Positions 1 through 57,419 of a DNA stretch of 64,000 bases are shown here, piece by piece. Position numbers and translations under genes: made by a program. Each line of letters begins with the position of its first letter. Positions within the stretch are counted from its first letter, which is position 1. Where the stretch lies: assembly GCA_963971405.1 (NCBI GenBank), contig OZ020492.1, forward strand, positions 806,001-870,000, written 5' to 3'. Source of the DNA: Psococerastis gibbosa (Eukaryota > Arthropoda > Insecta > Psocodea > Psocidae). Below the pieces are notes generated by a model. The model was not told where the DNA came from. It did not search any database and saw nothing but the letters and a program-made list of their open reading frames with translations.

Positions 1-246
1 GACCCCGATGAAATTAAATTAAGCTAAACTGCCAACACTCTGATATACTCTGTCTTTCACGTAGATCAGAAAATTTGTTATTGCAGTCCTACACTGGCTC
101 CATATTTTCAGCGAGTTTTTCTGTTTGTTGAATAAAAGAGAACATCATACATTATGCAGGTGAAAGTTTAAAGTTAACATTATCATTCATTATTTAAAAC
201 TAAAATAACAAACACTAGGTAATTTGGTAAATATTTAATTTTTTAG

Positions 247-306
247 CACAAACTTCACATTCCCTACTGGCTAATCAATCCATTTGTAGAAAATGATCTT
301 CAAAAT
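247..306 (+). CDS. Micro-exon 1 of the window (60 bp)
   Basis: A TTTAATTTTTTAG acceptor precedes it and a GTAAGT donor follows. The exon reads HKLHIPYWLINPFVENDLQN in phase 0. It holds one of only two Trp residues in the visible protein. Earlier exons must lie left of the window, because there is no start codon or signal sequence here. Confidence 0.72.
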
Positions 307-3300
307 GTAAGTTAATGTTTTCACATTCTAGGACAGAATATTTTAGAATTTCATATATTTATGTAATTTATTGTTTACATATTTTAGTGTCAATCAATAT
401 AGATGAAGAAAGTTGGTGTTATGCAACCCTACGAACCGCCAATCAGGATAGAGGAAACAAACCGCATAATCGATTATCGATTCGATTGGTGGAATGAACC
501 AAGGCACTTTGTTCTCTATAAATAAATAAATCAATAATCATTCATTTCAAACAGACCTAAAAGTACAATACAATGCAAATCAAATTAATACCTATAACAA
601 TTTTCCCTGCCCTAAGACTAAAATAAAAAATGAAATAAAATTAGACATACTATTTTAATATTAAGCTAACCATAGATATTAATAACAGATCTCTCTCATA
701 AATACACACAGTCTAGTAGTCCACTATTTCAAATATCCATCAACGGAGGTGAGGTAACCTCAATATGTTAAAAAATATTAAAAATCCATTCAATCTATTG
801 TACGCTGCAAACACTGGGGGGGGGGGGTTCAGACCCCTGGAGACCCCCTATGGCTATAGCCTTGAATATCCCTTATCCAAAAGCACTGCATTGATCGATG
901 GGAATGCCTATTCTGGAACGAACTGACCAATACATTGTACTAGTAGTAACATTGACAGGGCATGCAATGTACAATGTACCTATATTGATTGCTGGAGCGT
1001 GAATTTTCCATAATTTCCTCAAACAATAATTTTTTGCACAAAACCAAATAATTTTTTGGGAAAGCATACGGTTTGGTTTTGTTACTCTATTTAACACCTA
1101 AATCATGCCTGAAGGTAGAAATCATCGATAGAAAGGTTCCACAGAAAAATGATTTTTTGGACATTTTTCATTCTTATTTTGTACCCCCGGAAGCAAACTA
1201 TCAAGATTCACGGGGCAAGCGTTAATAGTTGTTAATATTAATAACAACTACAATATATGCGAATTTAAAAGAAATCGTTGGAACCGTTTTTGAGAAATAA
1301 TTCTTTTAGACGTTTTTTTTGTAGTTCTTTGAGAATAAAACCACCCAAAATTGAGTTAGCCCAAAATGAAAATAAAATGGTCCCGATTTATGAATTTTGT
1401 GATCCTACATGCCAAATTTTATCAAAATCGACCGAGTAGATTGCCCGGAAATCGAACAGACAGACAGAGCGATAGAGCGACAGAGCGAGAGACATTGCGT
1501 AAAAACCACTTTTTTGGGTTCCTGGGACCTCAAAACGTGTAAATCCGTTGAAATTTCGGAGTCGAAAATTTTGACCATCACAAAGCTTTCCTTATACTAC
1601 GTATAAATTGGAAAGCAACCAGGAGAATTATTATCGGCCTGCAGGTATGATTTACGGCGCCTGTAGCTCTGATATGACTGACATCGCAGTCAGCAACAGA
1701 CTTGATTTGCAGCAACATGTGCTAGAAACTATTCACTTCTGTTATCTTGTTCAAGAATGGATTCATATCCCGACAGCAGAATCAAAATTATATGTTCGAA
1801 AAAAAATCAGCAGGTCCATTCCCGAATACTTCGACCGTGATACAAGAGTCTATATGTGAGTGTACTTGCCACCTGTCACTGTTAACTGTCAAATACCTTT
1901 CCAATTCGCTTTTTTCAATTTTCCAATTCCTTTAACTCCTTTGCGAATATTACACCTTATATATTACACAGCATTAGGTCCGTTTTTGTTTTGCTCAAAT
2001 GAATATAAAAATGCGGAGCTTTATCAAAACAAACTATTTACGTCGCCATTTTTTAATATATTTTTTATTTTTTTATTATTTTTTTATTTTATTTTTTATT
2101 TTTTTTATTTTTTTTATACTAGCCTACATCAAACTAGTTTTTCAGACAAAAATGATGCAATTTTACCCTAATCTTATTAATCGCTGTCATTTTAAGCGCC
2201 CTATTCCATGAAGTCCATCATATACAATAAATATCCATTTATAGGATTTCATAATTAATTTAATTTAAAATCATATCAATGAAATTATTGCTGGATGTCA
2301 TTTTTCATTTATGTTTCAGGGGGAGCTTACTGTTCCTACGAATTCTATCAAGTTGGAAAACAACGTAAGCTAAGAGCGTAGAAAATTAGCACCCCAAAAT
2401 TAAATACTTTTCATTTCTTATTAACTCAGCAAATAATTAAAAATTTGGCTCATTTAAGTTGCAGAAGACTACTACTACTACTACTAATTTTAGCCCCCAA
2501 TGGTTTTTATGAAGGAACTAATGTACCAAAAGTTTAATATTTCCTATTATACGCAGTAGCGGCACAAGAAATTTTAAGGCGGGGGGCCATGGGGGGGGGG
2601 GGGAGCAGGCCCCCTCGGGCACCCCCGTAGCGCCGCCACTGATTATACGGTATGATGCAAGAAGTAGTCTTCTACTCTACAATTTACAAGAGCCAAGTCG
2701 TTAACAACTTACTTTGTTGATTAAATAAAAAATAAAAAGTCAATAAAAACAGCACATTTTGGGGGTGCTAATTTTCTACATAGCATGTAATCTTACGGGT
2801 AATCTGGGATTTTTGGAGAAATACGCCATTATATGATGCATGAAGTAGTCTTCTACAATTTAAAATGAGCCAAATTTTTAATAACTTGCTAAGTTAATGA
2901 AATAAACAATGAAAAGTATTTAATTTTGTGTTGCCAATTTTCTGCGTAGCATATCCCCTTAACGACTTCTCATTTACGGCTCTACACCCGATACAATGTA
3001 ACTGCAAGGGCTTTCACGGCTGGAGTCGAATGAAGAACCAGTAGAATCCGAGCTGATGGGTCGTGGTCGAAATGAAAGCGAACTTCCAAACGCAGCACAA
3101 ACGCAGGTACAATCTTCGAAGTCTACGCAGCGCCATTGAAGATGTCGACCGCAGATGTTGACGAAACGTTTGGAAGCTCACTTTCATTTCGACCACGGCC
3201 CATCAGCCCGGATTCTACTGGTTCTTCATTCTACACCCGATATTTACTCGGATTTTTTTTTAACGGTGAGCTTTTCCCCCTCCGCTTCTTCATGAGTAAA

Positions 3301-6300
3301 CAGAAGTTGTGCTATACTAGACAGAAGAAAGAACACAGACAAATGCTACATTCCGTTCAAAAAATGTTTCACTCCCCCCCCCCAAAAAAAAATTGTAAAT
3401 GTGTTCTACTATTTCTTCTAGGGAAAATTAAAGCTGAATCTGCCGTTAGTGCACGTGGTATGTATAGTATATTAGGCAGATGTATTAAATTTTTTTTGAT
3501 AAAAAGAATGCGCGAAACGGTGGGGTTGGACCCATTTTGAATGCAGCATGTTTAAATTTTACCAACAAAGACAGGGGCCCGTTGTTTGTTTTTTATAAAA
3601 CAGGCATGAAATAAATACTATTATTACCATAATAATAAATTATGAAATAATGTGCTTATTATTTATGCGAAAAATAAATACTTAATAATAAAATATTAGA
3701 ATAAGTAACGCAATTTCAAAACTACTGTTGCACCTATGTAGATAATGTTCTGCAATGGGGGGGGGGGGGGCTTCGTCTCTTATCCCCCATTCCCCCCTTC
3801 GAGACCGTATGCAGCCACAGTTGTGTGGAATAATCATCTGTCATGCGCAGTACTGCAGCATTTTCCCGCTGAGAATATTAGCTGACACCAGTTGCATTGC
3901 ATACAGGCAATCGACAAGTGTTTCAAATATACCTGGACGATGTCGATCGTAAGTTTGTTAACTTTACCGGACACTATCCAAGTTCACATACTGTCCTACC
4001 TCTCTTTCAAAGAACGTAAACAAACGCGACTGGTATGCAAGAAGTTGCTCGCCATCAATGAAGACCCATCGCTGAAATTACCCAGTGACAAAATTATCTA
4101 CAGAATTACGAAATTCGCAAAGGAAATTGAGGAGTATCTTGAGAAACCCAACTTGACCGAAATAAAACATTTAAAAATATACATGGATCGCAGCTTCTTT
4201 AATTTTGGAGCGCTTGAACCATGGCAAAGCGACGATCCGGAAGGATTGGAGAGGTTTTATGGTCTTGAAACTGAGTTTTGGAAGACGTTTGGACGTAAGA
4301 TGCAATGCTTGGATATTTACATCCCAGATGATGAACGCATTACTTACCGTTGTCATGATTTCGATTATACGCTAAGCCTATATGTTCCAAGAGAGATACC
4401 TAAAACGTATCACCAATACGATATGGATGATTTGGCTGCGGCAATGGCCAAAGGTGATTAAGAAAGGAGAACGAGAAGCATAGTCATAGGGTGACGGACC
4501 GTGGCGAGACATTTAGTTCACCAAAGTTTCAAGACAACAACGGGAATTCAATTCGTAAAAAAGACGCAATTGCAAGGAGGTGCAGTATTGATAACAACTG
4601 AACGTCAGGACGGCATCCTATAGGTAGATATAGACATACGAGTAGATATATCCCAATATCCCTCTCCCGAAAGTGTAGAAATTATTTAGACAAGTATGTT
4701 TAATATAACAATTTTATTCAAGCGTTAACCGTTCCGTTTTTTAAGTACAGATACCCTTGAGTACGTACTCTCTTTAGGTGTGCATGCCAAATATCAGCCA
4801 TTATAATAAAAATGGCCACAGTGCCCCTCCCTCTATATCTGACGCCCTTGAGCATAATTTGTAGGTTTTTGTATATTTATAATTTTGTATACAGTGCAAT
4901 GTACTGCATATGTTCAATATATATATAAAAATGAGGAGCTTGGTTACAAACGTGGCCAACTCCATTTTTTTACAAAATGGGGTTTCGATCCGACCTTGCA
5001 GAAAATTTTAATGTCCACCTGCACGTTGTAAAATAAAGTGACAACTGCAGCCAGATTGCGAACAGAAGCGCTGAGAAGTCTAGGGTTAGCTATAAGCTTA
5101 ATGCAATTTTCAACAGAAAATCCACTCTCCTCAAAAATTCTACAACTTGGAGTTGGCCATGTTTGTAAACAGCCTCCTCATATGTATGTATATATGTATA
5201 TATTTAATATACGCTTATTACTAGAAGATAATTCAGTGGGTCTGCCTTTGAATAATAACTTAACCTGGTGGTTAAAAATGTAAACAAATACATTTAGAAA
5301 TTTAAAGTAGCTCTTTGCATTCTAGTAATCTTTTGTTTACATTTTAAAACCCCGAATAGGTTATAATTAAGGCCCAATCTCCCCCGAGGCACCAACGACA
5401 TTCGTTTTTTGCATGGCGTTTTTGTATCGTCGGACGCTTGACTGTTTATTGTATGCATCTATTTTAAATAATTTGGCCAAGGGCCACATATATCTTCAGA
5501 AATATTTCTTCTAATGGCTTTGGTATTTTATATAGTTCTTTGTTGAATATTTAGGAGGACATTTCGACTTTTTGCAAAACGAGTGGCATTGGTGTTTCCA
5601 GGGGGGGGGGGGTGTTGTGGCCTGAGATTGTATCACACACATACATCACGAATAGAGCAGTGGTCAAGAGAGAAGTTTCTCCACCTCAAGCTCCTCAAAG
5701 ATAAACCCTCATTAAGAGTGTACAGCCCGTAGGAGATTGGCAGCCCGAAATTTAATACTTTTTATTTTTTTTTAATTAACTAAGCATGTTGTTAAAGATT
5801 TGGCTCATCAAAGTTGTAGAAGACTACTTCATGCATCATATTATAAGATATTTTTAATTTTCGAAATAGTAGTTTTTTCAGAAACAAGCAAATATTTTAT
5901 AAACAATAACTTTTCACGTATTGTCGATTTTATAAAAAAAAACTACAATTTCGGAAACTGAAAATACCTTATTATATATAATGAATGTCTTCTACAACTT
6001 TGATGAGCCAAATCTTTAATAACATGCTTAGTTAATTAAATAAAAAATAAAAAGTATTGAATTTCGGGCTGCCACTTTCCTACGTGCTGTACACTGATTT
6101 GGTAATGCTTTCCTAATTATAGGCTAGTAGGAAAGCTTTGTGATGATCAAAATATGATCAAAATTGAAATAAAAATGAAATGACAAAACAACTAATTTCT
6201 GGTACAAGAGATTTTGTCTCGGCATAAAAAGTATAAAAAGTAATATAGGAATAAATAAGTTTGTTTGCTTTCCTAGCCTATTTATACGTCAGGATAAGCC

Positions 6301-9300
6301 ATAAGGAAAGCTTTGGGGAGCATGAAATGTTTGATTTCGAGATTTCAGTGGATTCACACGTTTTGAGTTGCTAAGCACCAAAAATGTATTATTGACGACG
6401 TCGAGAATATGCAACGTACTGTACCTTGAGGTTAAAAATGAAATAAATGTATTGTCTTTTTTAATTTTAATCTTTGGTCTAGGTTTTCGTCAGTTAGACA
6501 GCTGCGTAACTCCTTTTAATCCGATTCAAATTAGAAAATAGCCTTTGGCATGATATTTTAGACCCAAAACTTACAAACTCCGTAAGCTCTCCAACTCTTT
6601 GTAAGACGTGGATAGACTCTCGCCTTGTAAATTAAAATATCCTTCTTTTCTTGTTTCTCCGACTTTGCGCACTTGTTTTCTGAGCTCAGCTCACATTTCT
6701 CCTTCTCCAATCCATGATAGTCATTTAAATTTTAATTCCACCACAGCTAAGAAATGCGAAGCCAGGATTGAAACAACTCGGAGCTTTAGTTGTCCCGGAG
6801 CCATAGTTTGAGGACCCAGGCTGTTATGACCCCAAAAAAATAACCTCAATGCCAGCTGCTCGGGTGTAGTAGGTACTAGGTAGTACAGTACAATAACAAC
6901 TATAACAAACAAAAACGCCAAGGCACGATAACCCACTGAGGCTCTAGGCCTGAAGACTGGTGGAAGACCACTGCTTCATTTTTGATGTTGTAGTCTGCAA
7001 CATGCGGAGCAGAAGCGTTTCTCCCCTGCACATGAAGATACGGAAGGATAAGTCGGAAACTGACCTTCGAGAGTTGGGAGTCCGTACATGTTGGAGTGTT
7101 TTTCAAAACCGAGATGACTGGAGGAGTGTTGTCGAGCTTGTCAAAGCTCAACAAGGGCTGTAGAGTCACAAGAAGAATGATGATAAGGTACCCATTTGGG
7201 TCTCGAACTTCGACCTTCCGTTTCATAGTCCAGTTCTCTATCAACTGGACTATAATAATAATTAAAATAAAATATCTTGGCCAAGTATTACTTAAAAATA
7301 TTAAAAACGACCAGTTTCGGCAATAGACCATCCTCAGGCTACAGACATACAATACTGCATAAACCGGTCGCTTGTAATAATTTTTAGTAATACTTGACAA
7401 AGTTGTTTTATTTTATTCCATGACGAAAGATTACAAAGTGATGATATAGTATATATAATTTTTGATTTTTCAGAATGAACAAATTCCTTTCCCACGGTTT
7501 AATTGGGTAAGATATATGACTTAGGGTGGCTTTCATCATAGCTAGAAAACGCTTGGTAAGGCACCGCCAGGCGTTGGCAGGGGGCGATCTATATAGTGAT
7601 CATAGTGAGTTATTGAAAAATAATAATAACAAAACATTTGCTTTCCTATTTATGAATTAGTATACTGCTTTCCCATTTCTACATAAGTGTAAGTAGAGCT
7701 TTGTGGTGGTCGAAAATTTATATTTCCAGATTTCAACAAAATTACACGTTTTGAAGCCCCAGGAACCAAAGAACCGGTCCGAGTTTACTCGAACATGCTT
7801 TCCAATTTATCAATTAGTAGGGAGAGAAAATGAATAATTTCATGGTAAATAATTTTCCTATCGTTAAATTTCGGATATCTCGGGGGGGGGGGGGGGGTGT
7901 CCACCTGACGTCACTGGCAATGCATTTCAGCGTGAAGTTTTTATCATTTTTCAAAAAAAAATTTTTGCGCAAAAGCAAATAGGTTTTTGGGAAAGCAAAC
8001 TGTTCGGTTTCGTTACTCAACTTAACACCTAAAACATGCCTGAAGGTAGAAATCATCGATAGAAAAGTTTTGAAGAAATACTATTTTTTAGTCATTTTTC
8101 ATGCGTCAATTTCCGGGCAAACTACTCAGTCGATTTTGATGAAATTCGACATGTAGGTTTATAAAAATCATACCTCGGGACTATTTTTTTTATTTTGGGC
8201 TATCTCAATTTGGGGGGTTTATTTTCAAAAAACTCCAAAAAAACGTCTAAAAAAATTATTTATCCAAAACGGCTCAAATGATTTCTTTTAAATTCACATA
8301 ATTTGTAGTCGTTATTAATGTTGACAAAATGCGGGGGGTCACTTGCCCCTTGATAGTTTTCTTCTGGGGGTAAAAAAATAAAAATAATTAAATTTTAATG
8401 AAAAATGACTAAAAAATAATTTTTCTGTGAAACCTTTCCATCGATGATTTCTACCTTCAGGCATGTCTTGGGTGTTAAATTGAGTAACGCAACCGGACAG
8501 ATTTCTTTCCCAAAAAACTATTTTGTTTTGTGTAAAAAAAATGTTTTTTGAAAAAATGATAGAAAATTCGCGCTCAAATGCATTGCGTGCCTGCCATTAT
8601 TGCTGTGTGGTAATTTGTTGGTCTGGCCTATCTAGAATTTACCTCACCTCCGGTGACGTCAGGTGGAACCCCCCCCCCCCCCCCCCCCCCCGAGATGCCT
8701 GCAATTTGACTATAGGAAAATTATTTACCATGAAATTACTCATTTTCTCTGGCTACTACTTGATAAATTGGAAAGCATGTTCGAGTTAACTCGGACCGGT
8801 TCTTATGAAATGTCGGTCTGACAGACATTTCAAAATAATCTGCGCTTGTGGACCAACTACTCAATGGATTTCGTTGGTTTACAAAAATTCTACATATGGA
8901 AATATGTTTCTAATTTGGGCTTTTAATTAAGACACTTTAATTATTTTGTAGAGAGGTGAGAGTGATAGGCAAGGAAAGAATACCGAATGACAGCAAAAGT
9001 TAATTTTCAAAAATTGCATTGGCTTGTTGCCGTATATTTTATACTAACACAACCCATTAAAATAGTAACATTGTTTTTTAGAACAATTTTGAAATCCCTA
9101 AGAGATTCCTGGAATTGCTTGACATTCAAATGGAAAAAATGGATTATGTAAGTAATGGTATTGTAAACATAAGCAATTAAAATTTCTATATATCTGCGCG
9201 TAGATTGTTTTTTTCGGTATTTATAAAGATAAAGATAGATATTATGAATATATTATTCTGTTACATTATGCAACCAAGTAATCAAGAAGTACTTCAAACA

Positions 9301-33300: not shown

Positions 33301-36300
33301 GAGATCTATAAATAATTCTTTACCGGACATATTCTCAAATGTTCTGTTATATTATATATTATTTTAATCTGAAATTTCAGTCTCCGGTATTGTCACCATT
33401 AGTGGATACTATAAATGAAGAACTCCCGGACTTGGTAACTAGTATATTAAACTTTTGTAGACTACCTATTGATAACTATATTTCTGTAAGCTAGTCCGTA
33501 GTCTTAGGGCAATGCCAACTTCCAGAAACTTTCCTTCATGTAAATATAGCTTGGTCAAGTCGACAGTAAACCCAAGTTTACCTTAATGACAGTTTTTGCT
33601 TAGTTCATTTCAATCGTACCAATAGCACTTGATAAGTTGATAAGTAGATCAGCTCGGATTCTACTGTATCATAATCTACCTGCAGCTGTGAAAGCCTTTA
33701 AAATGCGATTGACCTATTCAGTCGCCTCTGTCGGTTAGTATGATGAGTTAGGATGCGTCTACGATCAGGGCCGTAGCTTGGGGGGGGGGGGCAGGGGGCT
33801 CAGCCCCTCCCCAAACGTTCTGTCGCGCCCCCCAAGAAGGATTAAAGTAAAGGACACTTAACAGTTAACACTATTGGGCTTTGAAAAGGAAAGGGTGGAA
33901 ATTTTAGACCTCGAAGAGTTTTGTAGAAATTTTAGCAAAACCAAAACACGACGGCTGCAATTGTATTGATTTTTGGACAATGATTATTTGTAATTGTTGA
34001 TTTATAGGCCTACCTAGCCCATTGTCAATTTGTTTTTAAAAAAATGAAGGGACAATTTTTTTTAACTACAAATAAAACTTGTATTTATTTATTTTCTTGT
34101 TTTGAGAAATGACAATATGTGATGCAACTCAAAACCGGGGGGCTATGCCCGTAGCCCCCCCCCCCCAGAATTTCTGGTGACAAAGACGTCGATAGTCAGT
34201 GATAGCTTTAATCGATGGTACAATCTCAACTGTACTGCTTGCAAAATTCGTAAAGCCTCACTAATTTGGGCCTATTTATCCATTTTTTCACCGGGAGGGA
34301 CCCCCGGACCCCCCTTTCTCCAGGGTGAAAATGCGGAAAACCTCACTACTTTGAACCCATTTGTCCATTTTTTTTTCTCCGGGGGAGAGCCCCGGACCCC
34401 CTTCCTCCGAGTTATAGTATGCGTAATACCTCACTAATTTGGGCCCATTTATCTCTTTTTTTCTCCAGGGGAGACCCCCGGGCGCCCCTTTCTCCAGGGG
34501 ATAAAGTGCATAAAACCTCACTAATTTGGGCTTATTTATCAATTTTTTTTCTCCGGGGGATGGAAGCCATGGGGTCCTCCAGCCCCCCTTCCCCCAGAAA
34601 TTTTGGTAATTTACGCCAATGGGTACATAGTTAGATTGGTGAGACCTATATCTCATGTTTACCATACCATAATGGCTTGGATTCATGGATATTAGCTTAG
34701 ATCTGATTATGACAACCCAAAAAACCTAGCCCCCCAAAAGGTTAACCAGCCCCCCTAATGCTTTTCTCAGCGCTACGGCCCTGGTCTACGATCGCATGGC
34801 GTGATGAGACTTGCACAAGCACAACCATGCTACCAATTCAATTTTATTTTACCTTGCCATCGAAGCCGATCTTCATATAATAATTATAATGAAAAAAATT
34901 ACGTTTCGGTTATCTTACCCATTGGTTTCTTTCCATTCACAGTCCATAAGAACTGGATCATCTTCCTTTTCAGAAAGTAATTCATTTAGAATCATCCACA
35001 ATAGGGGTTCTTAAATCTTTTATGCAAAAGAAGCGGCTTCTTTCTTTACTTTACTTTACTTTGGTACTTTACTTTACTCGAAAAGAGCTTATAGCGAACA
35101 ATGCATTGGCTGATTTGTGATCTGCATTAGCTGACAGGCTTGCTCACACATAATATTGCAGTTCTTTCAATATTCATGTGCGCTGTTGTACGAATTTTAT
35201 ATTGTATTTTATTGAAATAAATGATTACTTTTTTTTTGCAGAATATATTAACTTTCCTGGCTTATGTGTTCCATATTACAGTTCAACCACAGGTATTTCA
35301 ACTTTTCTATACATTGCTGATTTATTTTCATTTTCTAAAAATGATTTATGCCCAATTTAAGCGTTACTGTATTATAATTTAAAAATTCATAGAAGGCTAA
35401 GTATGGCACCAATTGAAATGACAAACATACCCAGGAAATTATTTTTCACATTTATGCACGATGTTAAAACACACCAAGAAGACTAAATTCAGCTGCTTTA
35501 TCATATATCTAGCGTATGCAAGAAAGAACAGCAATTAATCTCTGTTAACAAACAATTTATAAATTATAATAACGAAGGCTTTCACAGCCGGAGCCTAATA
35601 AGGGGAAAGAAGAATGCAGCACCGAACCATACCTGCACCAACTCTGTCAGTTGCTACGGTACCTCCGCGATACAACCTTAGAAGTGTACGTGTACGTACT
35701 AAAGATGTCGACCGCAGTTATTGACGAAATGTTTGGAAGCCTACTTTCAAATCGACCACGGCCTATTATCCCGGATTCTTCTGTCCCGTTATTAATTTAT
35801 AATTTAATTCTTACTCCGATTTAATTCGCGTAAGTTAAATAATACTCACTAGGGCTTATAAATGTAGGATATTTGAATTAATTATATCTTTGTAAATATT
35901 ACTTAAAACATTAAAAAACACGACCGGTTTCGACCTTATGTCATCCTCAAGGTTACTAAGTAAGTAAGTAAGTTATTCTATAGCGTTGATGCTACGACTG
36001 CTGAAGGTTTTTAATTTACTCCTTTCAGAACTACATACTTAGTGCAACCCCTTTCCTATTTACACGAACTGTGGTAAGATTTTATTTTTCTCATGTAACT
36101 ATATTACTATTACAATGAACTAATAATGACTTTTGCTTCATTACTGAACTAAGTTAGTGGCGTTAGGGCTATAAAGCCTTCTCTAGCGTTTGACAGAGCA
36201 CCGCCTGCTTTACATGTCCTACGAAGCAAGGCCAGAACAAGTAGCAAGCGAATTAAAACTGAGTCCGTGCCTCTACACTACATTTTCTGGCTATAATTTA

Positions 36301-39300
36301 TACAGTGAATGCCGCCCACCCATGCCACCAAGTGGAATCCGATGGGAAAAATTTGACGAAAAAAAAAAATTTTAATATACTTCCAACAATTTTTTTTTTC
36401 ATTTTGATTTTAAACCATGCGAATCATTTGATATCTGACTGTACTAATACTAGTAGCTAACCGAAATTAGAGGATATAGAAAAATCTATACATGGCGGGA
36501 TTTGAACCCAAGCTCTATGCCTTGCTGGGCATTGACTTAACCGCTGGACGAAGACCCGGTAAGGAATAGGTCGTGGGTTCGAATCCCGACAAGTGTAGAA
36601 TTTTCTAGATCCTCTAATTTCGGTTATCATGAGGATGTTGCCTCTTCAACCTAAGTTAGTTTAATGTCGGTATTATATACCATATACGTATGCTAGTAGG
36701 TACTTAAATTTACGTTTCAATAGTCCCTCTGCCTTTGGGATTAACGTAATACCGCGGTATATTCAATTGTTTGAAACAACTGACTGCAACGGGAAATCGA
36801 GATTGATAAATCCTCGGCTACATTTTTGGAGAGTTTTTCATTTTTTCTCCCTTACATATAGACACATGTATTAAAATTAAAATTATTATATTTTAAAATT
36901 CTACCAGTACATTTTAATGCTTATTAGTATTTCCTTCAATCATAAAATAATGCAACCATTCTCTTGTATTCCAAAAATTTACTAATTTGCATTTCCCCCT
37001 CATATTTTCACAACGTCACGTGACAACTTACTAATGCGGCAAAAAAAACCGGTATTATGTTAATCCCAAATAGCCGTAATAGGGCTGAAAATTGAATTAA
37101 AACCTCTAAACTTATGGTAAAAGTAAAAATGCCAAAAAGCCCTTTGAGGTGTAGACTTGAGGACACAGAAGATATTCTCTCTAGAAAGCTGCTCTTGCAG
37201 TCGGAGTGGCAATTTTAATAATTTTATTTATTTATTAAATTTAGTTTTCAATTAGCCCTTGAGGATCGTACTGTAGGGTAAACACACTATCCAGATAACC
37301 AGTCCTCCGCTGTATGTTTGGTTGTGCGCCTGTGGTTTGGCAAAATGTATTTATTCATTTTATTGTAAATATCGTACACTTATTGACTTTAGCCAACGGC
37401 TATACCATGTTGAATCTCCCAGAGCAAAACCTGTTCTAAACTGCAGCAAACTCGGTAGTGTGGTCAGCATTGGCAGGGGAACATGGTGGGACATGATAAC
37501 TTAGACTACTAGTCAGTCTAAGTGCGTGTTGAGTCCCAGACCCCAGTCACCTCTGAATTAATCGTGTGACTGTACTATGTTCCCCAAGGGGTTCGGATTC
37601 CACTCAAAGTATAATCAGGAGTTCTATACTGTCAGTGAACTCCCCTTCCCCCTGAGGTGAAGGTGTCTGCCCTTAGGGTGCCTCAAGTTAATTAACAGAC
37701 TCCCACCCCGGCTGGCTGTGTTGTATGATGCCCTAGACTTAGGGTGAGTCTGAGGTCCTATACAAAACTTAATCCTAACTTAACCTAAACACGCCATACA
37801 ATAGGAGTATGAGACTTACCCCAAAGAACAAGGCGAGGTTGACTTGTATTAGGTAGATACATTCGTCACATCATGAATGCTCCGGCCTTATTTACGACCT
37901 CTGGATCGCTTCCGTCCCTCCGAGCCTGATCTCGTCCCCCTGCTCCCGTCTTCTGCTATACAATGCTTACAACTAGACTCTCAGTGTCAGCGTTCGTCAG
38001 CAGGCCCGAAGTAGGTGATGCCATCCAGAGGCGTACCACTGCCATCGGCTTACACTCATGCCAATATAGATATCAAATTTTTTTTATATATACGACAGCT
38101 AACAGGGTTGAATAAAAACAGAACTGCTGTAAGCAGACGTTTGAGAACAAACAAACGACTTAGGTAGCAGAATATAATTTTATTTCTTCTATCTTATTTC
38201 AGAGAATCTTCTTCAGCTCACTTGTTGCGCTAGCTTTTCTTCCATATTTGGTGGTAGGTTACAAGAAAAAAAAAAAAAAAACATTGTGACGCGAAAACCC
38301 AATGATGGTTTAGGCGTGAGGGGCTGGTAGATGATCCTCTCTATTGGGATGTTGTGGTGAGCAACACGCCCGGCTACCACGGTTTTCCCCTACCTATGAA
38401 GCTAAGGTGCCTATCAGCCATTTTTCCTTTAACGTCGGAACAGGATCATAGACCTTCCATTTTGTATTCCAATCGTCTACCAACAGGGTTAAACGCAGTG
38501 CCCCAAAAGGGAATTACATCGACGCTATCTAGCGAAACGTCGAAAATCAAAAATCAAAATGCTCATTCAGCTTCGATGGCATAGTGGTAGCTTGTTCGTA
38601 CTTCATGCGAGTCTCTACACATCATGCGATTGGTCACCTGTCGTAAATCAACACAGGTATTACCTACAGAGGTGACTGAAGAGGTTATTCGGATACATTC
38701 ATTGAATTGTTTGTATCTTTAAAATAATAATAATAATTTTTTTCCAGCCTATCATAACTCCTTCTGTTCTGCCTATATTAATGTATCTAACACTGGTAAG
38801 AATGCTTACAATTATAATTAATTTATGGTGTAATTTATTTAGTCAATGGATTTATTGCTGAAAAAAAATGCATAAAACTATTGGAGCACATGAAGCCACC
38901 CATGGATGTGGAAGGAGTAAGACGTCTCTTCCACAAGCCTCTTCCATCCATTAGAGAAACGAACGTTAGAGAGATTGAAATTGAACGGAAACAGGATTCT
39001 CTACTTTGTCGGGGTAGTGCTGACCAGTCTATCCATACCAAACACTGCAGCACTTCTTCAATTTGTTATATCTTCTTTCTCAATTTTACCTGTAGAGGCT
39101 ATCTACAAATTACTACACCCAGGGACGGATCCAGCCCATTTTGGGAAATAGAAGAAACAACGATTAAATATGACCGTAATAAATAAACTTACAATTGATT
39201 TATTATTTTTTTTTGGGGGGGGGGGGTAGCTTGTATCCGTAAATGCCTACACCAGTATTGTTGCTTTGTGAGAATAGCAGCATTGATTTCGGAAATTGTT

Positions 39301-39616
39301 TAAATTGTTTCCGTCTGAATTTTGGGCCATTAACATACTGGTATACGTCCTCAATGTCAACCTTCACCGGCTACAAGCGATAATGGACAAGCTGAGACAA
39401 GCTTACCATTGACGCAATATTGTAACCATTGGCACGGTGTATCAGGTGGAAGCATGACTAAACCATGTACATATACTAGTCTAGCTTTGTTAGTTGTAGG
39501 GAAATTAAACGCCTACTTTTTTCAAAATGAATCAATACAGATGGTTTCTATTTAGATAATTATATTTTTCTTTACAGGCTAAATTACTTCTGCTTCCACT
39601 GAGTGCGCTGTTTTAG
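247..39616 (+). CDS. Micro-exon gene (composite of 24 phase-0 exons), unknown secreted or membrane protein, 5'-incomplete
   Basis: Twenty-four short exons (33-72 bp, mean about 46 bp) run in order on the plus strand. Each sits between an AG acceptor, usually pyrimidine-rich, and a GT donor (mostly GTAAGN or GTGAGN), and each is a multiple of 3 and open in phase 0. Together they encode about 370 residues ending at the TAG of 39614-39616. No cysteine occurs. N-[LF]-P motifs recur (LNLP, INLP, LNFP, FNLP), seven exons begin with Gly, and the C-terminal third is strongly hydrophobic. Introns range from 208 bp to about 4.6 kb and are full of transposons. No start codon or signal peptide is seen, so the gene begins upstream of the window. 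I do not recognise the family. Function is unknown; symmetric exons would allow skipping without frameshift. The exon chain was read by eye; one or more exons may be missed or miscalled. Confidence 0.82.
780..1617 (+). mobile_element. HINE-type element, diverged left half
   Basis: The right half (about 1100-1617) matches the family closely, including the CAGACAGA region and the ATAAATTGGAAAGCA end at 1603-1617. The left part is diverged and the terminal hairpin is not recognisable. The left boundary is uncertain. Confidence 0.65.
1608..1859 (+). other. Unidentified open frame of 83 codons
   Basis: The open frame starts in the last bases of a HINE copy and continues through sequence that is not repeated elsewhere in the window. 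It includes a stretch beginning LQQHVLETIHFCYLVQEW and ending YFDRDTRVYM. A GTGAGT donor at 1856 and an AG at 1711-1712 could bound a 143-bp exon, which breaks the phase-0 rule of the surrounding gene. It may be an exon of another gene, an unknown TE fragment or chance. I do not recognise it. Confidence 0.25.
2320..2364 (+). CDS. Micro-exon 2 (45 bp)
   Basis: The acceptor is ATTTATGTTTCAG and the donor GTAAGC. It reads GELTVPTNSIKLENN in phase 0. The left arm of a MITE begins within a few bases of the donor, so the downstream intron starts almost inside a transposon. Confidence 0.78.
2368..2960. mobile_element. MITE family C copy abutting a splice donor
   Basis: The left arm (GTAGAAAATTAGCACCCCAA) and right arm (TGCCAATTTTCTGCGTAGC) match family C. 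The left edge is within a few bases of the GTAAGC donor of micro-exon 2. The 88-bp hAT MITE sits inside it. Confidence 0.65.
2554..2641. mobile_element. 88-bp hAT-type MITE with 8-bp target duplication
   Basis: CAGTAGCGGC at the left and GCCGCCACTG at the right bound 88 bp with a 12-base G-run. ATTATACG is duplicated exactly on both sides (2546-2553 and 2642-2649). It is inserted into a copy of MITE family C. Confidence 0.82.
3002..3240. mobile_element. Fold-back MITE family D
   Basis: Inverted arms: CAGTAGAATCCGAGCTGATG against CATCAGCCCGGATTCTACTG, enclosing GAAGATGTCGACCGCAG and ACGAAACGTTTGGAAGC. Other copies lie near 10955, 25408, 33640, 35573, 40895 and 51470. Confidence 0.75.
3422..3457 (+). 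CDS. Micro-exon 3 (36 bp)
   Basis: The acceptor is CTATTTCTTCTAG and the donor GTATGT. It reads GKLKLNLPLVHV in phase 0 and carries the recurring N-L-P motif. It begins with Gly, like six other exons of this gene. Confidence 0.75.
3940..4461 (+). CDS. F-box protein, intronless, nested in an intron of the micro-exon gene
   Basis: This is a 173-codon open frame ending in TAA. Residues about 8-45 form an F-box: LPDTIQVHILSYLSFKERK, then the R-x-V-C-K motif (TRLVCKKL). F-box domains bind Skp1 in SCF ubiquitin ligases, so the family role is substrate recruitment. The remainder has short leucine-rich-like stretches (IKHLKIYMD, MQCLDIYIPDD) but no clear WD40, Kelch or full LRR array. The start at ATG 3940 puts the F-box near the N terminus as usual; an in-frame ATG at 3892 would add 16 residues. 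The lack of introns suggests a retrocopy or a short lineage-specific paralog. It lies between micro-exons 3 and 4 on the same strand. AATAAA-like sequence occurs about 340 bp after the stop. Confidence 0.75.
   Translation: MSIVSLLTLPDTIQVHILSYLSFKERKQTRLVCKKLLAINEDPSLKLPSDKIIYRITKFAKEIEEYLEKPNLTEIKHLKIYMDRSFFNFGALEPWQSDDPEGLERFYGLETEFWKTFGRKMQCLDIYIPDDERITYRCHDFDYTLSLYVPREIPKTYHQYDMDDLAAAMAKGD
4462..5716. other. Intron sequence, nothing recognised
   Basis: AT-rich intron of the micro-exon gene after the F-box gene. It has a G-run near 5600 and AATAAA-like matches that could serve the F-box gene, but no exon candidate. Confidence 0.5.
5717..6095. mobile_element. MITE family C with long inverted arms
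   Basis: AGTGTACAGC at the left and GCTGTACACT at the right begin arms of about 150 bp that are inverted copies (GATTTGGCTCATCAAAGTTG against CAACTTTGATGAGCCAAATC). No coding capacity. Confidence 0.78.
6258..6385 (-). mobile_element. HINE end fragment
   Basis: It begins TTGCTTTCCTAGCCTATTTA and continues through AAGGAAAGCTTTGGGGAG to CACACGTTTTGAG, the first about 120 bp of the family in reverse. Confidence 0.5.
7474..7506 (+). CDS. Micro-exon 4 (33 bp)
   Basis: The acceptor is TTGATTTTTCAG and the donor GTAAGA. It reads NEQIPFPRFNW in phase 0. The preceding intron of about 4 kb contains the nested F-box gene. Confidence 0.78.
7638..7767 (-). mobile_element. HINE fragment, inverted
   Basis: It carries only the GGAAAGCA-side end and the next roughly 120 bp, in reverse orientation, and then abuts the left end of another copy at GAACCGGTCC. 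Confidence 0.65.
7768..8804. mobile_element. HINE fold-back structure (two head-out left arms)
   Basis: Both ends are the hairpin end of the family: GAACCGGTCC at the left and GGACCGGTTC at the right. The left arm is in plus orientation to about 8100 and the right part is in minus orientation from about 8104, so the whole can fold on itself. Each arm has its own G- or C-run (7880-7895 and 8670-8691). Confidence 0.7.
8669..8691. repeat. Homopolymer C run (about 23)
   Basis: This is the longest of many G or C runs in the window. It is part of a HINE arm. Confidence 0.9.
9082..9147 (+). CDS. Micro-exon 5 (66 bp)
   Basis: The acceptor is TTGTTTTTTAG and the donor GTAAGT. It is a 22-residue, phase-0 exon beginning NNFEIPKRFL and ending QMEKMDY. 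It is one of the larger exons and the most charged one. Confidence 0.82.
9608..9991. mobile_element. Harbinger-like MITE with 3-bp target duplication (ATA)
   Basis: The long terminal inverted repeats begin GGCGCCCATTCCATTGACCG and run over 80 bp, to CTAAGTCTTGAATGTCTGC. ATA flanks both sides (9605-9607 and 9992-9994), and the empty site at 56207-56215 has ATA once. Confidence 0.8.
10012..10859 (+). mobile_element. HINE-type (Helitron-like, non-autonomous) element, complete copy
   Basis: It begins AGAACCGGTCCGAGTTC, followed by TGCTTTCCAATTTAT, and ends ATAAATTGGAAAGCA: a perfect 15-bp inverted repeat set inside the left end. The left end is a hairpin (on the other strand GTTCGAGTGAACTCGGAC). 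A G-run (about 19) and a CAGACAGA microsatellite lie inside. Comparison with the paralogous sequence at 56216-56240 shows an empty site with no target duplication, inserted in an A-run. Subterminal repeats, microsatellite, terminal hairpin and A/T target fit the HINE/Helentron family. Confidence 0.8.
11102..11320 (+). mobile_element. tRNA-derived SINE, family 1
   Basis: An A-box-like CAGTGGTACAGACTCCG and the B box GATTCGAGTCCCAC are followed by a body (CATGCTTCGGAGGGCATGTA) and a tail with the hairpin AGGGCTTTATAGCCCT. The end is an A/T-rich AAAAAGTC...TTTATTT run. Confidence 0.85.
11973..12008 (+). CDS. Micro-exon 6 (36 bp)
   Basis: The acceptor is TATCTTAATTTCAG and the donor GTAAGA. It reads ESLVLKSNLLSK in phase 0. 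Confidence 0.77.
12985..13160. mobile_element. MITE family C half copy
   Basis: Only the right arm is clear: GATGCACGAAGTAGTG...GAGCCGAATTTTTAAG...GCCAATTTTCTACGTA. Confidence 0.55.
13326..13361 (+). CDS. Micro-exon 7 (36 bp)
   Basis: With the acceptor at TTTTTATTTTAG it reads IFRRINLPKNSN in phase 0, ending at GTAAGT. A second AG eight bases further in (TTTTCAG) would give a 28-bp exon that breaks phase, so the first AG is preferred. It carries the N-L-P-K motif also seen in the exon at 20653. Confidence 0.7.
13570..13605 (+). CDS. Micro-exon 8 (36 bp)
   Basis: The acceptor is GGCCGATTTTCAG and the donor GTAAGA. It reads GLLIFSPPTLDE in phase 0. The intron before it is only 208 bp, the shortest found in this gene. 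Confidence 0.78.
14614..14765 (+). mobile_element. tRNA-derived SINE, family 1, body deleted
   Basis: It has the A box, B box TTTCGAGTCCCACAC and the AGGGCTTTATAGCCCT tail; the middle (CATGCTTCGGAGG region) is missing. Confidence 0.78.
15061..15132 (+). CDS. Micro-exon 9 (72 bp)
   Basis: The acceptor is AATTTTTATACAG and the donor GTAAGT. It is a 24-residue, phase-0 exon beginning GDYVLPLMDL and ending IELPGPID. It is the longest exon found and holds two L-P motifs. Confidence 0.8.
15210..15398. mobile_element. hAT-type MITE, 189 bp
   Basis: GAAGGGCGGATTTT at the left and AAAATCCGCCCTTG at the right; CTGGTACT is duplicated on both sides (15202-15209 and 15399-15406). It contains G-runs of up to 14. 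Confidence 0.8.
15490..15672 (+). mobile_element. tRNA-derived SINE, family 1, 5'-truncated
   Basis: It starts at CACCCGAAAGGTTGTTTG, keeps the B box (GTTCGAGTTC), the CATGCTTTGGAGGGCAT body and the tail hairpin. Confidence 0.78.
16037..16084 (+). CDS. Micro-exon 10 (48 bp)
   Basis: The acceptor is CTATTTTATTTCAG and the donor GTAAGT. It reads GEIRYPIELNFPPLNQ in phase 0, with an N-F-P-P variant of the repeated motif. A HINE copy starts about 50 bp downstream. Confidence 0.83.
16136..18726 (-). mobile_element. HINE-type element, minus strand, split by a LINE
   Basis: It begins TGCTTTCCTATTTATA and ends GACCGGTTCTTT. Parts at 16136-16705 and 18198-18726 are collinear with the family; the LINE at 16706-18197 lies between. 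A second short insertion (about 18482-18665) with the tail GAAATAAAAAGTTACTTTAC interrupts the right part. Confidence 0.8.
16706..18197 (+). mobile_element. CR1/L2-like LINE, 5'-truncated, nested in a HINE
   Basis: The reverse transcriptase domain begins with HQSGSRPYHSTNTAL and motif A (broken by a stop near 16890), then GVPQGG (motif B, near 17060) and CYVDDY (motif C, near 17150). A long open frame runs from about 16960 to the stop at 17991-17993 and ends with the usual R-Y-R-E-H-L tail. The 3' UTR carries the hairpin AGGGCCCGAAGGCCCT and ends in (ATT)n. The element splits a HINE copy. One damaged site in motif A means it is probably dead, though most of the frame is intact. Confidence 0.82.
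19096..19362. mobile_element. Harbinger-like MITE with TTA target duplication
   Basis: The same terminal repeats as the 9608 element, 267 bp long, flanked by TTA at 19093-19095 and 19363-19365. TWA-type 3-bp duplications are characteristic of PIF/Harbinger. Confidence 0.8.
19775..19935 (+). mobile_element. SINE family 2 copy
   Basis: It shares CATGCGATCGGAGACGTGTC, CTACAGAGGGGACTGAAGAG and CGGATACATTCATTACATTG with the 38573 copy. Confidence 0.62.
20653..20688 (+). CDS. Micro-exon 11 (36 bp)
   Basis: The acceptor is TCTGACATTTTCAG and the donor GTAAGT. It reads GLPQFNLPKIEY in phase 0, with the N-L-P-K motif. The preceding 4.6-kb intron is filled by a LINE nested in a HINE. Confidence 0.83.
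21818..22035 (+). mobile_element. tRNA-derived SINE, family 1
   Basis: GGACATGTAGAGTAACGGTG, then TTGGTTCGTTTCTCAGAC (degraded B box), then CATGCTTCGGAGGGCATGTA and the tail hairpin region. Confidence 0.8.
22251..22650 (-). pseudogene. LINE 3'-end remnant
   Basis: The minus-strand frame includes MTRANLCRWGLAEV, ECGQ and HLLVCPRL, the C-terminal Cys/His pattern that ends many non-LTR ORF2 proteins (transposition spacer lost between Q and H). No RT core is present here. Confidence 0.55.
22921..23345 (+). repeat. Repeat E, single-unit copy
   Basis: GGTTCCTGGAAGGCATGCAA and the downstream block to TTTGCATGTTGAATCCTG match the repeat at 32029-33240, but with only one copy of the internal unit. 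Confidence 0.65.
23874..24138. mobile_element. hAT-type MITE, 265 bp
   Basis: CAGTGCCGGATTAATCC at the left and GGTTAATCCGGCACTG at the right are terminal inverted repeats. The flanks resemble an imperfect 8-bp duplication (GGGGAAAT and GTGGAAAA). Confidence 0.72.
24505..24546 (+). CDS. Micro-exon 12 (42 bp)
   Basis: The acceptor is TCCTTTATTTTTAG and the donor GTAAAT. It reads GLLSADFKKLLEPK in phase 0. Confidence 0.79.
25262..25294 (+). CDS. Micro-exon 13 (33 bp)
   Basis: The acceptor is TTTCTATTTTACAG and the donor GTAAGT. It reads PMMRFVTIVFK in phase 0. Confidence 0.8.
25405..25530. mobile_element. Fold-back MITE family D, short copy
   Basis: CGACGCAGTAGAATCCGGGA at the left, TTCTACTGCTTCGTCACG at the right, with the central region mostly deleted. 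Confidence 0.6.
26479..27198. mobile_element. hAT-type non-autonomous element, 720 bp
   Basis: CAGTGGCGTAGCCA at the left and TGGCTACGCCACTG at the right; CATGAAAT is duplicated exactly (26471-26478 and 27199-27206). It holds repeated blocks of the form GGGGGAGACC, similar to those in the element at 33766. No transposase is seen. Confidence 0.85.
27480..27548 (+). CDS. Micro-exon 14 (69 bp), hydrophobic segment
   Basis: The acceptor is TTTTCTATTTTCAG and the donor GTGAGT. It is a 23-residue, phase-0 exon beginning LIVVPLLLFV and ending LKIAPIII. Its length and hydrophobicity fit a single membrane-spanning or membrane-associated helix encoded by one exon (inference). Confidence 0.83.
28334..28396 (+). 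CDS. Micro-exon 15 (63 bp)
   Basis: The acceptor is TTTTTATTTTTGCAG and the donor GTACCT. It is a 21-residue, phase-0 exon beginning PQIILFKVAM and ending VKLLMK, amphipathic and basic. Confidence 0.8.
28996..29580 (-). mobile_element. HINE-type element, degraded, minus strand
   Basis: Collinear fragments include the TTTCTATTGATG...CTTCAG segment, the TTTAAGTGCTAAATAGAG segment and the end AAGCATGTACGGGTTCACTCG. A 160-bp unrelated insertion lies at about 29052-29215. Confidence 0.55.
29600..29632 (+). CDS. Micro-exon 16 (33 bp)
   Basis: The acceptor is TTATAATTTCAG and the donor GTATGT. It reads VKQLNSKILDS in phase 0. Confidence 0.76.
29873..29914 (+). CDS. Micro-exon 17 (42 bp)
   Basis: The acceptor is ATAATTTTTTTTCAG and the donor GTATAA, weaker than most. 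It reads PLIPKLPSAAKILT in phase 0. The intron before it is 240 bp. Confidence 0.75.
30990..31698 (+). pseudogene. LINE RNase H domain remnant
   Basis: The first part reads FYTDGSLKNDSAATGVFWDD before a stop near 31140. The following open frame (31138-31698) contains CSDSQAAI and WVPGHSGFQGN, then a degraded C-terminal tail with CRYCAMEVES. These are the RNase H motifs of an I/R1-type LINE. The break between YTDGS and SDSQAA and the lost last Asp show it is dead. It lies in an intron of the micro-exon gene. Confidence 0.75.
31918..31956 (+). CDS. Micro-exon 18 (39 bp)
   Basis: The acceptor is ATCTGGTTTTAG and the donor GTAAGT. It reads KIIREIERNYPDL in phase 0. A minisatellite-bearing repeat begins less than 100 bp downstream. 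Confidence 0.78.
32029..33240 (+). repeat. Repeat E with an internal minisatellite of about 220 bp, 5 units
   Basis: GGAAGGC occurs near 32032, 32211, 32469, 32686 and 32910, each followed by an AACTAA-type block, a (A)GAAATATTTGTAT block and AGCTCACAATGTAACAG. The last two units (about 224 bp apart) are nearly identical. It ends with the same block as repeat E at 22921. Confidence 0.82.
33381..33434 (+). CDS. Micro-exon 19 (54 bp)
   Basis: The acceptor is ATCTGAAATTTCAG and the donor GTAACT. It reads SPVLSPLVDTINEELPDL in phase 0. It ends in P-D-L like the preceding exon (NYPDL), which hints at an old exon duplication (inference). Confidence 0.8.
33766..34783. mobile_element. hAT-like non-autonomous element, 1018 bp
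   Basis: CAGGGCCGTAGC and GCTACGGCCCTG are 12-bp terminal inverted repeats. GTCTACGAT (9 bp) is duplicated on both sides (33757-33765 and 34784-34792). The inside holds an 87-bp tandem repeat. Confidence 0.82.
34254..34600 (+). repeat. About 87-bp tandem repeat, 4 units, inside a hAT-like element
   Basis: Each unit starts CCTCACTAATTTGGGCC (with changes), continues with a T-run and CTCCGGGGGAGACCCC-type blocks, and ends near AAAATGCGGAAAA or equivalent. Starts are near 34256, 34340, 34428 and 34516. Confidence 0.8.
35242..35292 (+). CDS. Micro-exon 20 (51 bp), hydrophobic
   Basis: The acceptor is TTTTTTTTTGCAG and the donor GTATTT. It reads NILTFLAYVFHITVQPQ in phase 0. An internal GT after ACA (35281) would also keep phase 0 and shorten the exon by four codons. 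Confidence 0.75.
35573..35790. mobile_element. Fold-back MITE family D copy
   Basis: CGAAGGCTTTCACAGCCGGAG at the left, quoted in part, leads to AAGATGTCGACCGCAG and to CCCGGATTCTTCTG at the right. The left arm is partly degraded. Confidence 0.6.
36029..36073 (+). CDS. Micro-exon 21 (45 bp), hydrophobic
   Basis: The acceptor is TTTACTCCTTTCAG and the donor GTAAGA. It reads NYILSATPFLFTRTV in phase 0. Confidence 0.8.
36145..36300 (-). mobile_element. tRNA-derived SINE, family 1, minus strand
   Basis: AGGGCTATAAAGCCTTCTCT (tail) followed by ACCGCCTGCTTTACATGTCC (body) and a weak B box in reverse. Confidence 0.7.
36470..36700. mobile_element. SINE family 3, head-to-head pair
   Basis: GGCGGGATTTGAACCCAAGC (reverse B box) and ACTTAACCGCTGGAC are followed in the other orientation by GTGGGTTCGAATCCCGACAA. 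Two tRNA-like heads face each other, flanked by TCCTCTAATTTCGG on both sides in inverted form. Confidence 0.6.
38203..38253 (+). CDS. Micro-exon 22 (51 bp), hydrophobic
   Basis: The acceptor is TTCTATCTTATTTCAG and the donor GTAGGT. It reads RIFFSSLVALAFLPYLV in phase 0. It is hydrophobic throughout. Confidence 0.8.
38573..38720 (+). mobile_element. tRNA-like SINE, family 2
   Basis: TGGCATAGTGGTAGC (A box-like) is followed by CATGCGAGTCTCTACACATC, TACCTACAGAGGTGACTGAA and GGATACATTCATTGAATTG. Related copies are at about 19775-19935 and 43722-43875. Confidence 0.65.
38748..38795 (+). CDS. Micro-exon 23 (48 bp), hydrophobic
   Basis: The acceptor is ATAATTTTTTTCCAG and the donor GTAAGA. It reads PIITPSVLPILMYLTL in phase 0. 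Confidence 0.82.
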
Positions 39617-39625: not shown

Positions 39626-40194
39626 GTAAGTAAAAAATAAAGAGACGTAATAGAGTTATAAAGGAACCTTTGCATACACTTTAAATTTATTCTTTTAGCA
39701 AAAGAAAAGTGTAGCAACCAACAGGTGGTCATGGGCGTGTCTCATGTGATCAATTCTGAACCAACTTCGTCATGTCATTTTTCTCTTTTGCATTTATTTC
39801 CAACTGTTACAACGGGGTTTCTCGTTACAAATATTTTGCGGACCCCCGCTCAAAATTATTTTAAGACGCTTTTTTACAAAAGGATCCGTGTCCGATAACC
39901 TGTTCTATCGCCTTTTCTATAGGTTAGTACCAGTGTTGAACTACGACACAGCGTGTAGCAGTAGAGACTAGCACAAGGATAAGCACGGTGCCACCCAACC
40001 TTTTTTCATGAAGAGGGGAGTTAAGGGATTCCGACACCCCCCCCCCCCCTTATTTACTATGTACGCAGGCCCACCCTATTCCTTCTATAATTTATTCATC
40101 CCCACTTTCAAACTATAAGCAACAAAGTTGGAAGAAAGTTTTAATCTTGATTGGAAAAATAATATTGTGTGGTATTGCGGCTTTCAACCTTCAG

Positions 40195-44404: not shown

Positions 44405-44545
44405 TAACCGAAATTAGAGGGTATGGAAAAAACTGGGCTTGGCGGGATTCGAACCCACGATCTACGCCTAACCGGGGCGTCGTCTTAACCGCTGGACCAA
44501 CCAAAGTTAATTTAATGTCAGTGTTATATATACCATATAATACTA
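44405..44545 (-). mobile_element. SINE family 3 copy
   Basis: CCGAAATTAGAGGGTATGG, GGCGGGATTCGAACCCACGA (reverse B box) and TCTTAACCGCTGGACCAACC; tRNA-like on the minus strand. Confidence 0.7.
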
Positions 44546-47096: not shown

Positions 47097-47112
47097 TCAG
47101 TTAAAGTTTACA
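47097..47112. repeat. Target-site duplication, right copy
   Basis: TCAGTTAAAGTTTACA, identical to 46193-46208. Confidence 0.85.
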
Positions 47113-57397: not shown

Positions 57398-57419
57398 CAT
57401 ATTCATGGTCAGTTAAACA

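Follow-up and report, generated by a model that had tools for sequence, protein, structure and literature searches.

We propose that the 64,000-nucleotide stretch of DNA analysed here (the window; C20:806001-870000 in a home genome of 409,210,807 bases and 68 contigs) carries the 3′ part of one insect gene of ~155 kb, which would represent a new type of micro-exon gene and would encode a secreted protein of ~860 residues. Judged from sequence, we give this reading a probability of roughly 0.55. That the array belongs to a real gene is close to certain; that it forms a single gene including the far 5′ exons is probable, and secretion of the product is likely to a similar degree.

A one-strand array of symmetric micro-exons

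All 24 short segments that an earlier note had reported from this DNA, in one orientation and in phase 0, were recovered on the plus strand (Table 1). Twenty-three of them combine an AG acceptor and a GT donor with a length that is a multiple of three and an open frame 0; segment 24 (39578-39616) terminates at TAG. The segments are 33–72 bp long and sum to 1,113 bp, which translate into 370 residues plus stop with no Cys, in agreement with the ~370 Cys-free codons and terminal stop given before. Nineteen internal exons were recovered with a generic splice model at thresholds down to 5, and three with looser cut-offs (one of these also by the trained model described below); the exon at 247 was found by eye and then added to the trained model, and the final segment was also found by eye. 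Splice scores are weaker in 3 of the 24 exons (9082-9147, 29873-29914 and 33381-33434). A comparison by eye placed no window exon within the 20 direct repeat families, nor within the inverted pairs (25 of 29 listed).

The generic splice model was untrained on the window and ignored frame. When it was used to list AG..GT segments of 24–90 bp at threshold 8, the plus strand of 1-40 kb yielded 18 segments, 16 of them with a length divisible by three and 15 also open in frame 0. Segments both symmetric and open numbered 0/3 on the plus strand of 40-64 kb, 1/4 on the minus strand of 1-40 kb and 1/3 on the minus strand of 40-64 kb. Twenty-five dinucleotide shuffles of 1-40 kb contained a mean of 0.72 and a maximum of 3 such segments, versus 15 in the real sequence.

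Table 1. Features of the gene in the window, with the proposed first exon. w-N denotes the position N bases before the window start.
Feature	Position	Strand	Remark
3′ part of giant micro-exon gene	1..39616	+	scans; extends upstream to a proposed first exon, 115,463 bases ahead of the window
First exon, 60 bp, MADLVVFRIFVVFTIFFGCQ, phase-0 donor	w-115463..-115404	+	proposed from hydropathy and donor
Micro-exon, 60 bp, HKLHIPYWLINPFVENDLQN	247..306	+	
Micro-exon, 45 bp, GELTVPTNSIKLENN	2320..2364	+	
Micro-exon, 36 bp, GKLKLNLPLVHV	3422..3457	+	
Micro-exon, 33 bp, NEQIPFPRFNW	7474..7506	+	
Micro-exon, 66 bp, NNFEIPKRFLELLDIQMEKMDY	9082..9147	+	acceptor weaker
Micro-exon, 36 bp, ESLVLKSNLLSK	11973..12008	+	
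Micro-exon, 36 bp, IFRRINLPKNSN	13326..13361	+	
Micro-exon, 36 bp, GLLIFSPPTLDE	13570..13605	+	
Micro-exon, 72 bp, GDYVLPLMDLRIAFPNIELPGPID	15061..15132	+	length and pattern match upstream exon w-12444
Micro-exon, 48 bp, GEIRYPIELNFPPLNQ	16037..16084	+	
Micro-exon, 36 bp, GLPQFNLPKIEY	20653..20688	+	
Micro-exon, 42 bp, GLLSADFKKLLEPK	24505..24546	+	
Micro-exon, 33 bp, PMMRFVTIVFK	25262..25294	+	
Micro-exon, 69 bp, LIVVPLLLFVGFPLALKIAPIII	27480..27548	+	very hydrophobic, GRAVY 2.52
Micro-exon, 63 bp, PQIILFKVAMKISDRVKLLMK	28334..28396	+	
Micro-exon, 33 bp, VKQLNSKILDS	29600..29632	+	
Micro-exon, 42 bp, PLIPKLPSAAKILT	29873..29914	+	donor weak
Micro-exon, 39 bp, KIIREIERNYPDL	31918..31956	+	
Micro-exon, 54 bp, SPVLSPLVDTINEELPDL	33381..33434	+	looser cut-offs
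Micro-exon, 51 bp, NILTFLAYVFHITVQPQ	35242..35292	+	
Micro-exon, 45 bp, NYILSATPFLFTRTV	36029..36073	+	in-frame alternative donor 21 bp further, exon end 36094
Micro-exon, 51 bp, RIFFSSLVALAFLPYLV	38203..38253	+	
Micro-exon, 48 bp, PIITPSVLPILMYLTL	38748..38795	+	
Final coding segment, AKLLLLPLSALF + TAG	39578..39616	+	48-bp symmetric exon if donor 39626 used
AATAAA, possible polyadenylation signal	39636..39641	+	starts 20 bases past stop; read from sequence

The 23 preceding segments stand as reported, but the last segment, described as having no donor, is followed by a strong one: GTAAGT at 39626, nine bases past the stop, with a score of 10.8 (the 48 internal exons of the full model score 3.0 to 12.4). 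Its use gives a 48-bp exon with TAG as codon 13 of 16, and the protein ends inside a structurally normal micro-exon containing an in-frame TAG. The 3′ untranslated region may be spliced, and there may be a choice between splicing at 39626 and polyadenylation at 39636, whose AATAAA would become intronic with this donor in use. The donor may also have arisen by chance, because 38 of the 253 acceptors with a score ≥ 8 across the 314 kb scanned have a comparable one (score ≥ 8, 24–72 bp onward, at a distance divisible by three), the gene's own exons being counted in. Further downstream, to 64 kb, only three weak phase-0 candidates pass, one of them transposon-like.

Upstream continuation and the gene model

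The window and its flanks (170 kb on the upstream and 80 kb on the downstream side; 314 kb in all) were scanned with a model trained on the window exons; the 36 kb next to the window on the upstream side were untouched by training. In these 36 kb, 13 of 15 non-overlapping strong segments on the plus strand were symmetric at threshold 18 (p = 3e-5), and all 13 symmetric segments were open in frame 0, the two alternative frames being open in 3 and 6; the minus strand gave zero segments. At threshold 16, symmetric segments made up 16/22 on the plus and 1/3 on the minus strand. Tandem copies of one segment at ~g798031-798468 (HSLCIVTYSNIL), which look like micro-exons with lengths not divisible by three, inflated the number of non-symmetric segments counted upstream. 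At threshold 18, symmetric segments downstream of the gene numbered only 2/6 on the plus and 2/4 on the minus strand, giving no sign of the array. The gene does not, then, start at position 247 as had been supposed: the array runs on for at least 36 kb upstream, and probably for 115 kb.

Between w-120k and w-36k, 6/10 strong plus-strand segments were symmetric (p = 0.08). We place less confidence in the far 5′ exons than in the near-upstream ones, because this excess is weaker and 3/4 strong segments on the minus strand were symmetric as well, all three of them open in frame 0. Exons between w-104k and w-77k are supported by fewer signals.

The resulting model has 50 exons with 2,574 coding bases, encoding 857 residues over 155,080 bp (predicted joins). 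Its 48 internal exons measure 24–105 bp (mean 51.6, median 48) and are all symmetric and phase 0; they are open in frame 0, versus 10 and 19 open in the other frames, a comparison that is partly circular as openness was required. Openness and phase 0 were selection conditions for these 48 exons, and the frame-blind scans are the unbiased tests. The median intron measures 1,555 bp and the longest 42,655 bp, and transposon remains are plentiful in the introns. The earlier count of at least 24 exons holds for the window, yet it understates the extent: roughly one quarter of the gene length falls in the window, with 24 of its 50 modelled exons.

An initial-exon scan from -116k to 40k returned three candidates with a hydrophobic start and a phase-0 donor, of which w-115463 is the most hydrophobic; one of the two less hydrophobic candidates outscores it on donor. 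The exon at w-115463 resembles a signal peptide by hydropathy only, which backs the earlier suggestion that the protein is possibly secreted. When the first-exon region was used as a query, 41 of 42 matches were repeat-like pieces of 25–44 bases at one query edge, and apart from such edge pieces the 40 candidates scored (of 265) included no second copy. Still further upstream, at ~w-144k to -156k, lies what we take to be a different gene, on the minus strand and with segments resembling PHD and PWWP, which seems to bound the micro-exon gene on this side.

Several other elements were seen in and around the gene. An F-box ORF (Pfam PF12937, PF00646) occupies 3940-4461 (+) within an intron, on the same strand as the micro-exons, and 13 candidates yielded zero database relatives for it at E 0.001. 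Pfam identified reverse transcriptase fragments at 16938-17993 (+) and 57417-57917 (+), the second in a 57417-58596 region with a further ORF at 58141-58596 (+), and an RNase H fragment at 46216-47100 (-). Two minus-strand loci ~105-108 kb upstream (L010 and L009) are presumably separate retrovirus-like frames in intron 1. A weak tRNA-like match at 44442-44499 (-; 31.2 bits, cut-off 29) is perhaps a SINE or pseudo-tRNA. Elsewhere in the 409-Mb genome, an exon-by-exon search gave at least six 7tm_6 odorant-receptor matches on contigs C1, C2 and C20, possibly a reduced odorant receptor set; to our knowledge these receptors are confined to insects, which marks the host as an insect. Six matches to bacterial 16S, with 5 of 2,667 candidates scored, all lie on contig C19 and were read as nuclear rDNA.

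Composition and patterns of the predicted protein

The predicted protein of 857 residues contains 15% Leu, 12% Pro, 11% Ile, 7% Phe and 4.3% Gly, and only two Cys (positions 19 and 23), one of which falls in the first exon. A single composition, rich in Pro, Leu and Ile and nearly free of Cys, is common to nearly all exons. In a composition test with leave-one-out learning and a background of 767 random open segments, all 42 internal exons in the interval w-36k to 38.8k lay above the background median and 38/42 above its 80th percentile. The six far-upstream exons, with the composition learnt without them, reached the 51st, 96th, 98th, 91st, 95th and 72nd percentiles. This test supports exon status without proving it, because a transposon-like segment at w-103428 also reaches the 99th percentile; it resembles sequences at 10565, 59079 and 61367, and all are read as probable transposon pieces.

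Along the chain, the pattern changes. In the first 12 window exons hydropathy alternates between neighbouring residues (lag 1, -0.258; lag 2, +0.055, p = 0.22), and from lag 1 alone a beta pattern is suggested. The last 12 window exons are more hydrophobic and exhibit helical periodicity (lag 4, +0.276, p = 0.001). Two long hydrophobic stretches cover residues ~670-716 and ~807-856, and a hydrophobic-x-hydrophobic-Pro pattern occurs 35 times versus 19.7 in shuffles. The translation has no obvious low-complexity repeat.

Exon pairs were also compared for traces of duplication. The best pair, w-12444 and 15061, has 24 codons in each member with several Gly and Pro placed alike; its score of 40 was equalled in 1/40 shuffles. 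The fifth-best score (31) exceeded the maximum of 29 in 40 shuffles, and the twentieth-best was attained in 3/40. In self-alignments, 0/100 shuffles matched the real sequence at two of nine cut points and 2 to 100 of 100 did so at the other seven; with softer gaps, all 60 shuffles were beaten at one of nine. Origin of the array by exon duplication is therefore likely, though these comparisons show it weakly.

Relatives, alternative readings and known systems

The earlier note had proposed a profile search of the joined protein in insect proteomes. Our searches with joined proteins returned no relative: a join of 730 residues (43 of the 50 exons) had zero matches in Pfam and PDB at E up to 10, and a 338-residue join had none among ~5.8 billion database entries at E up to 1, in an insensitive search. 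As a control, the reverse transcriptase of a window transposon retrieved 140 relatives, of which 120 were listed (identity 27-52%; 118 without a name). Since the relatives of this control are only distant, insects seem thinly represented in the database, and missing relatives are weak evidence. Paralogues had likewise been proposed as a check; in the home genome, the 857-residue join recovered at E up to 10 only the gene itself (25/25 matches to its own exons). About half of its 50 exons were thereby detected, so a diverged micro-exon paralogue could escape whereas a close copy should not. Of the independent micro-exon gene family postulated before, we retain the separate structural type; the word family gains no support from the 25/25 self-matches, found with a search that is insensitive to micro-exons. 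Among the papers listed on micro-exon, phase-0, SCPP and copepod themes, taken by titles and abstract openings, no insect phase-0 micro-exon gene was recognised, and the effector genes of grape phylloxera, described as mostly intron-less (PMC7376646), offer no parallel. By these searches, nothing was found to place the gene in a known family.

The known animal cases encode either fast-evolving secreted proteins (schistosome MEGs, aphid bicycle genes) or secreted components of matrix and mineral (SCPP, collagen). For the gene described here, we envisage a signal peptide, encoded by the exon at w-115463 and cleaved off, which would be followed by an acidic stretch, then by a long, proline-punctuated part that avoids adjacent hydrophobic residues and may be extended or beta-prone, and finally by a hydrophobic C-terminal part with helical periodicity. 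Having no disulphide-locked domain, such a protein could use single exons as spacer-like modules, and with all boundaries falling between codons, duplication, loss or skipping of a module should leave the reading frame intact. By analogy with schistosome MEGs, in which exon skipping yields variants, the gene may have grown by exon duplication, changed quickly and possibly given many isoforms of one gland secretion; the site might be a salivary or similar secretory gland, which is a guess. A bolder version, which we regard as doubtful, is an independent kind of animal micro-exon secretion gene: an insect gene with no close paralogue, its entire coding region a phase-0 cassette array, from which numerous splice variants of a gland protein free of disulphides would arise and act on the insect's host or food plant.

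Whether the product is a gland effector rather than a matrix protein is about evenly balanced. The matrix alternative holds that the gene encodes a secreted structural or matrix protein of silk, sheath, cement or eggshell type, its phase-0 exon array having expanded through exon duplication like those of the SCPP/casein genes or fibrillar collagens; as a complete account we consider it tentative and somewhat unlikely. A long, Pro-rich, nearly Cys-free product for which a second copy was not found would suit it, but Gly is low, there is no obvious low-complexity repeat, and the strongly hydrophobic C-terminal part would be unexpected in a matrix. The SCPP set, which includes caseins and enamel proteins, combines small exons with Cys-poor, Pro-rich secreted products; these genes belong to vertebrates and have far fewer exons. 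Their introns are reported to be all phase 0 (PMC7807025), and the same is true of our model, which nevertheless lacks any sequence match to them in Pfam or PDB (E up to 10, 730-residue join). Collagen genes, thought to have grown by duplication of 54-bp whole-codon exons (PMC2852846), share the many small whole-codon exons; membership of the fibrillar collagens, whose exons encode Gly-X-Y, was rejected, as Gly amounts to 4.3% here, the lengths vary, and no Pfam match was found.

Rather unlikely, in our estimation, is a division into two or more neighbouring micro-exon genes, e.g. one from w-115k to w-78k and another from w-38k to 39.6k. It would account for the 42.7-kb gap that separates internal exons six and seven (w-77813 to w-35157) and for the shift in composition towards the last 12, more hydrophobic and helically periodic exons. 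However, only a single strongly hydrophobic initial exon was found in -116k..40k (two weaker ones passed), phase 0 persists through the whole model, and the gap itself contains weak exon candidates at w-66804, w-61685 and w-37925, with composition percentiles of 100, 91 and 92.

It is very improbable that the gene is a far-diverged relative of the aphid bicycle genes. Many micro-exons and one putative secreted protein would fit. Bicycle proteins are marked by CYC motifs or a saposin-like fold; the 857 residues here include two Cys, but the existence of Cys-free bicycle proteins is on record (PMC13041983). The closest counterpart is the aphid megacycle gene, described as having > 100 micro-exons over ~100 kb, a secretion signal and a long protein of ~2,000 residues with internal duplications and no obvious CYC motifs (PMC9168663). 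The two genes share very many micro-exons and a long protein, putatively secreted in our case, but ours has 857 residues and 50 exons. Internal exons of bicycle genes are nearly all phase 2, and megacycle was identified by a classifier that rewards phase 2 (PMC9168663); in contrast, all 48 internal exons of our model are phase 0, with the frame-blind scans agreeing. With its printed coefficients, the published bicycle classifier gave a strongly negative linear predictor of -219.4 (-2.0 if the same exons were called phase 2), and bicycle membership was rejected. That study, moreover, reports no megacycle orthologue outside aphids (PMC9168663). Least probable of all is chance or a decayed gene, for which the in-frame stop ahead of a good donor in the last exon and the many transposon remains in the introns could be cited, but against which stand the shuffle, strand and frame controls and the stop-free state of the other modelled exons, although openness was a condition of their choice.

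If the preferred reading of one 155-kb secretion gene is true, an insect phase-0 case with ~50 exons would be a separate origin of the micro-exon design, and would offer a system for asking if uniform phase simply results from the duplication of exons or was favoured by selection for skipping. Automatic annotation is likely to miss genes of this class, because the exons average 52 bp and the joined protein has no Pfam match. Schistosome MEGs resemble the gene in that all its exons are symmetric, and their products are described as secreted or membrane-anchored (PMC5825161). Yet symmetric exons of 6–36 bp make up ~80% of the MEG coding region (PMC5825161), versus 14 of 48 internal exons and 477 of 2,574 coding bases (18.5%) in exons of ≤ 36 bp here, and a schistosome-type MEG was rejected on this ground. 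Collectively, these comparisons support a structural type of its own among micro-exon genes.
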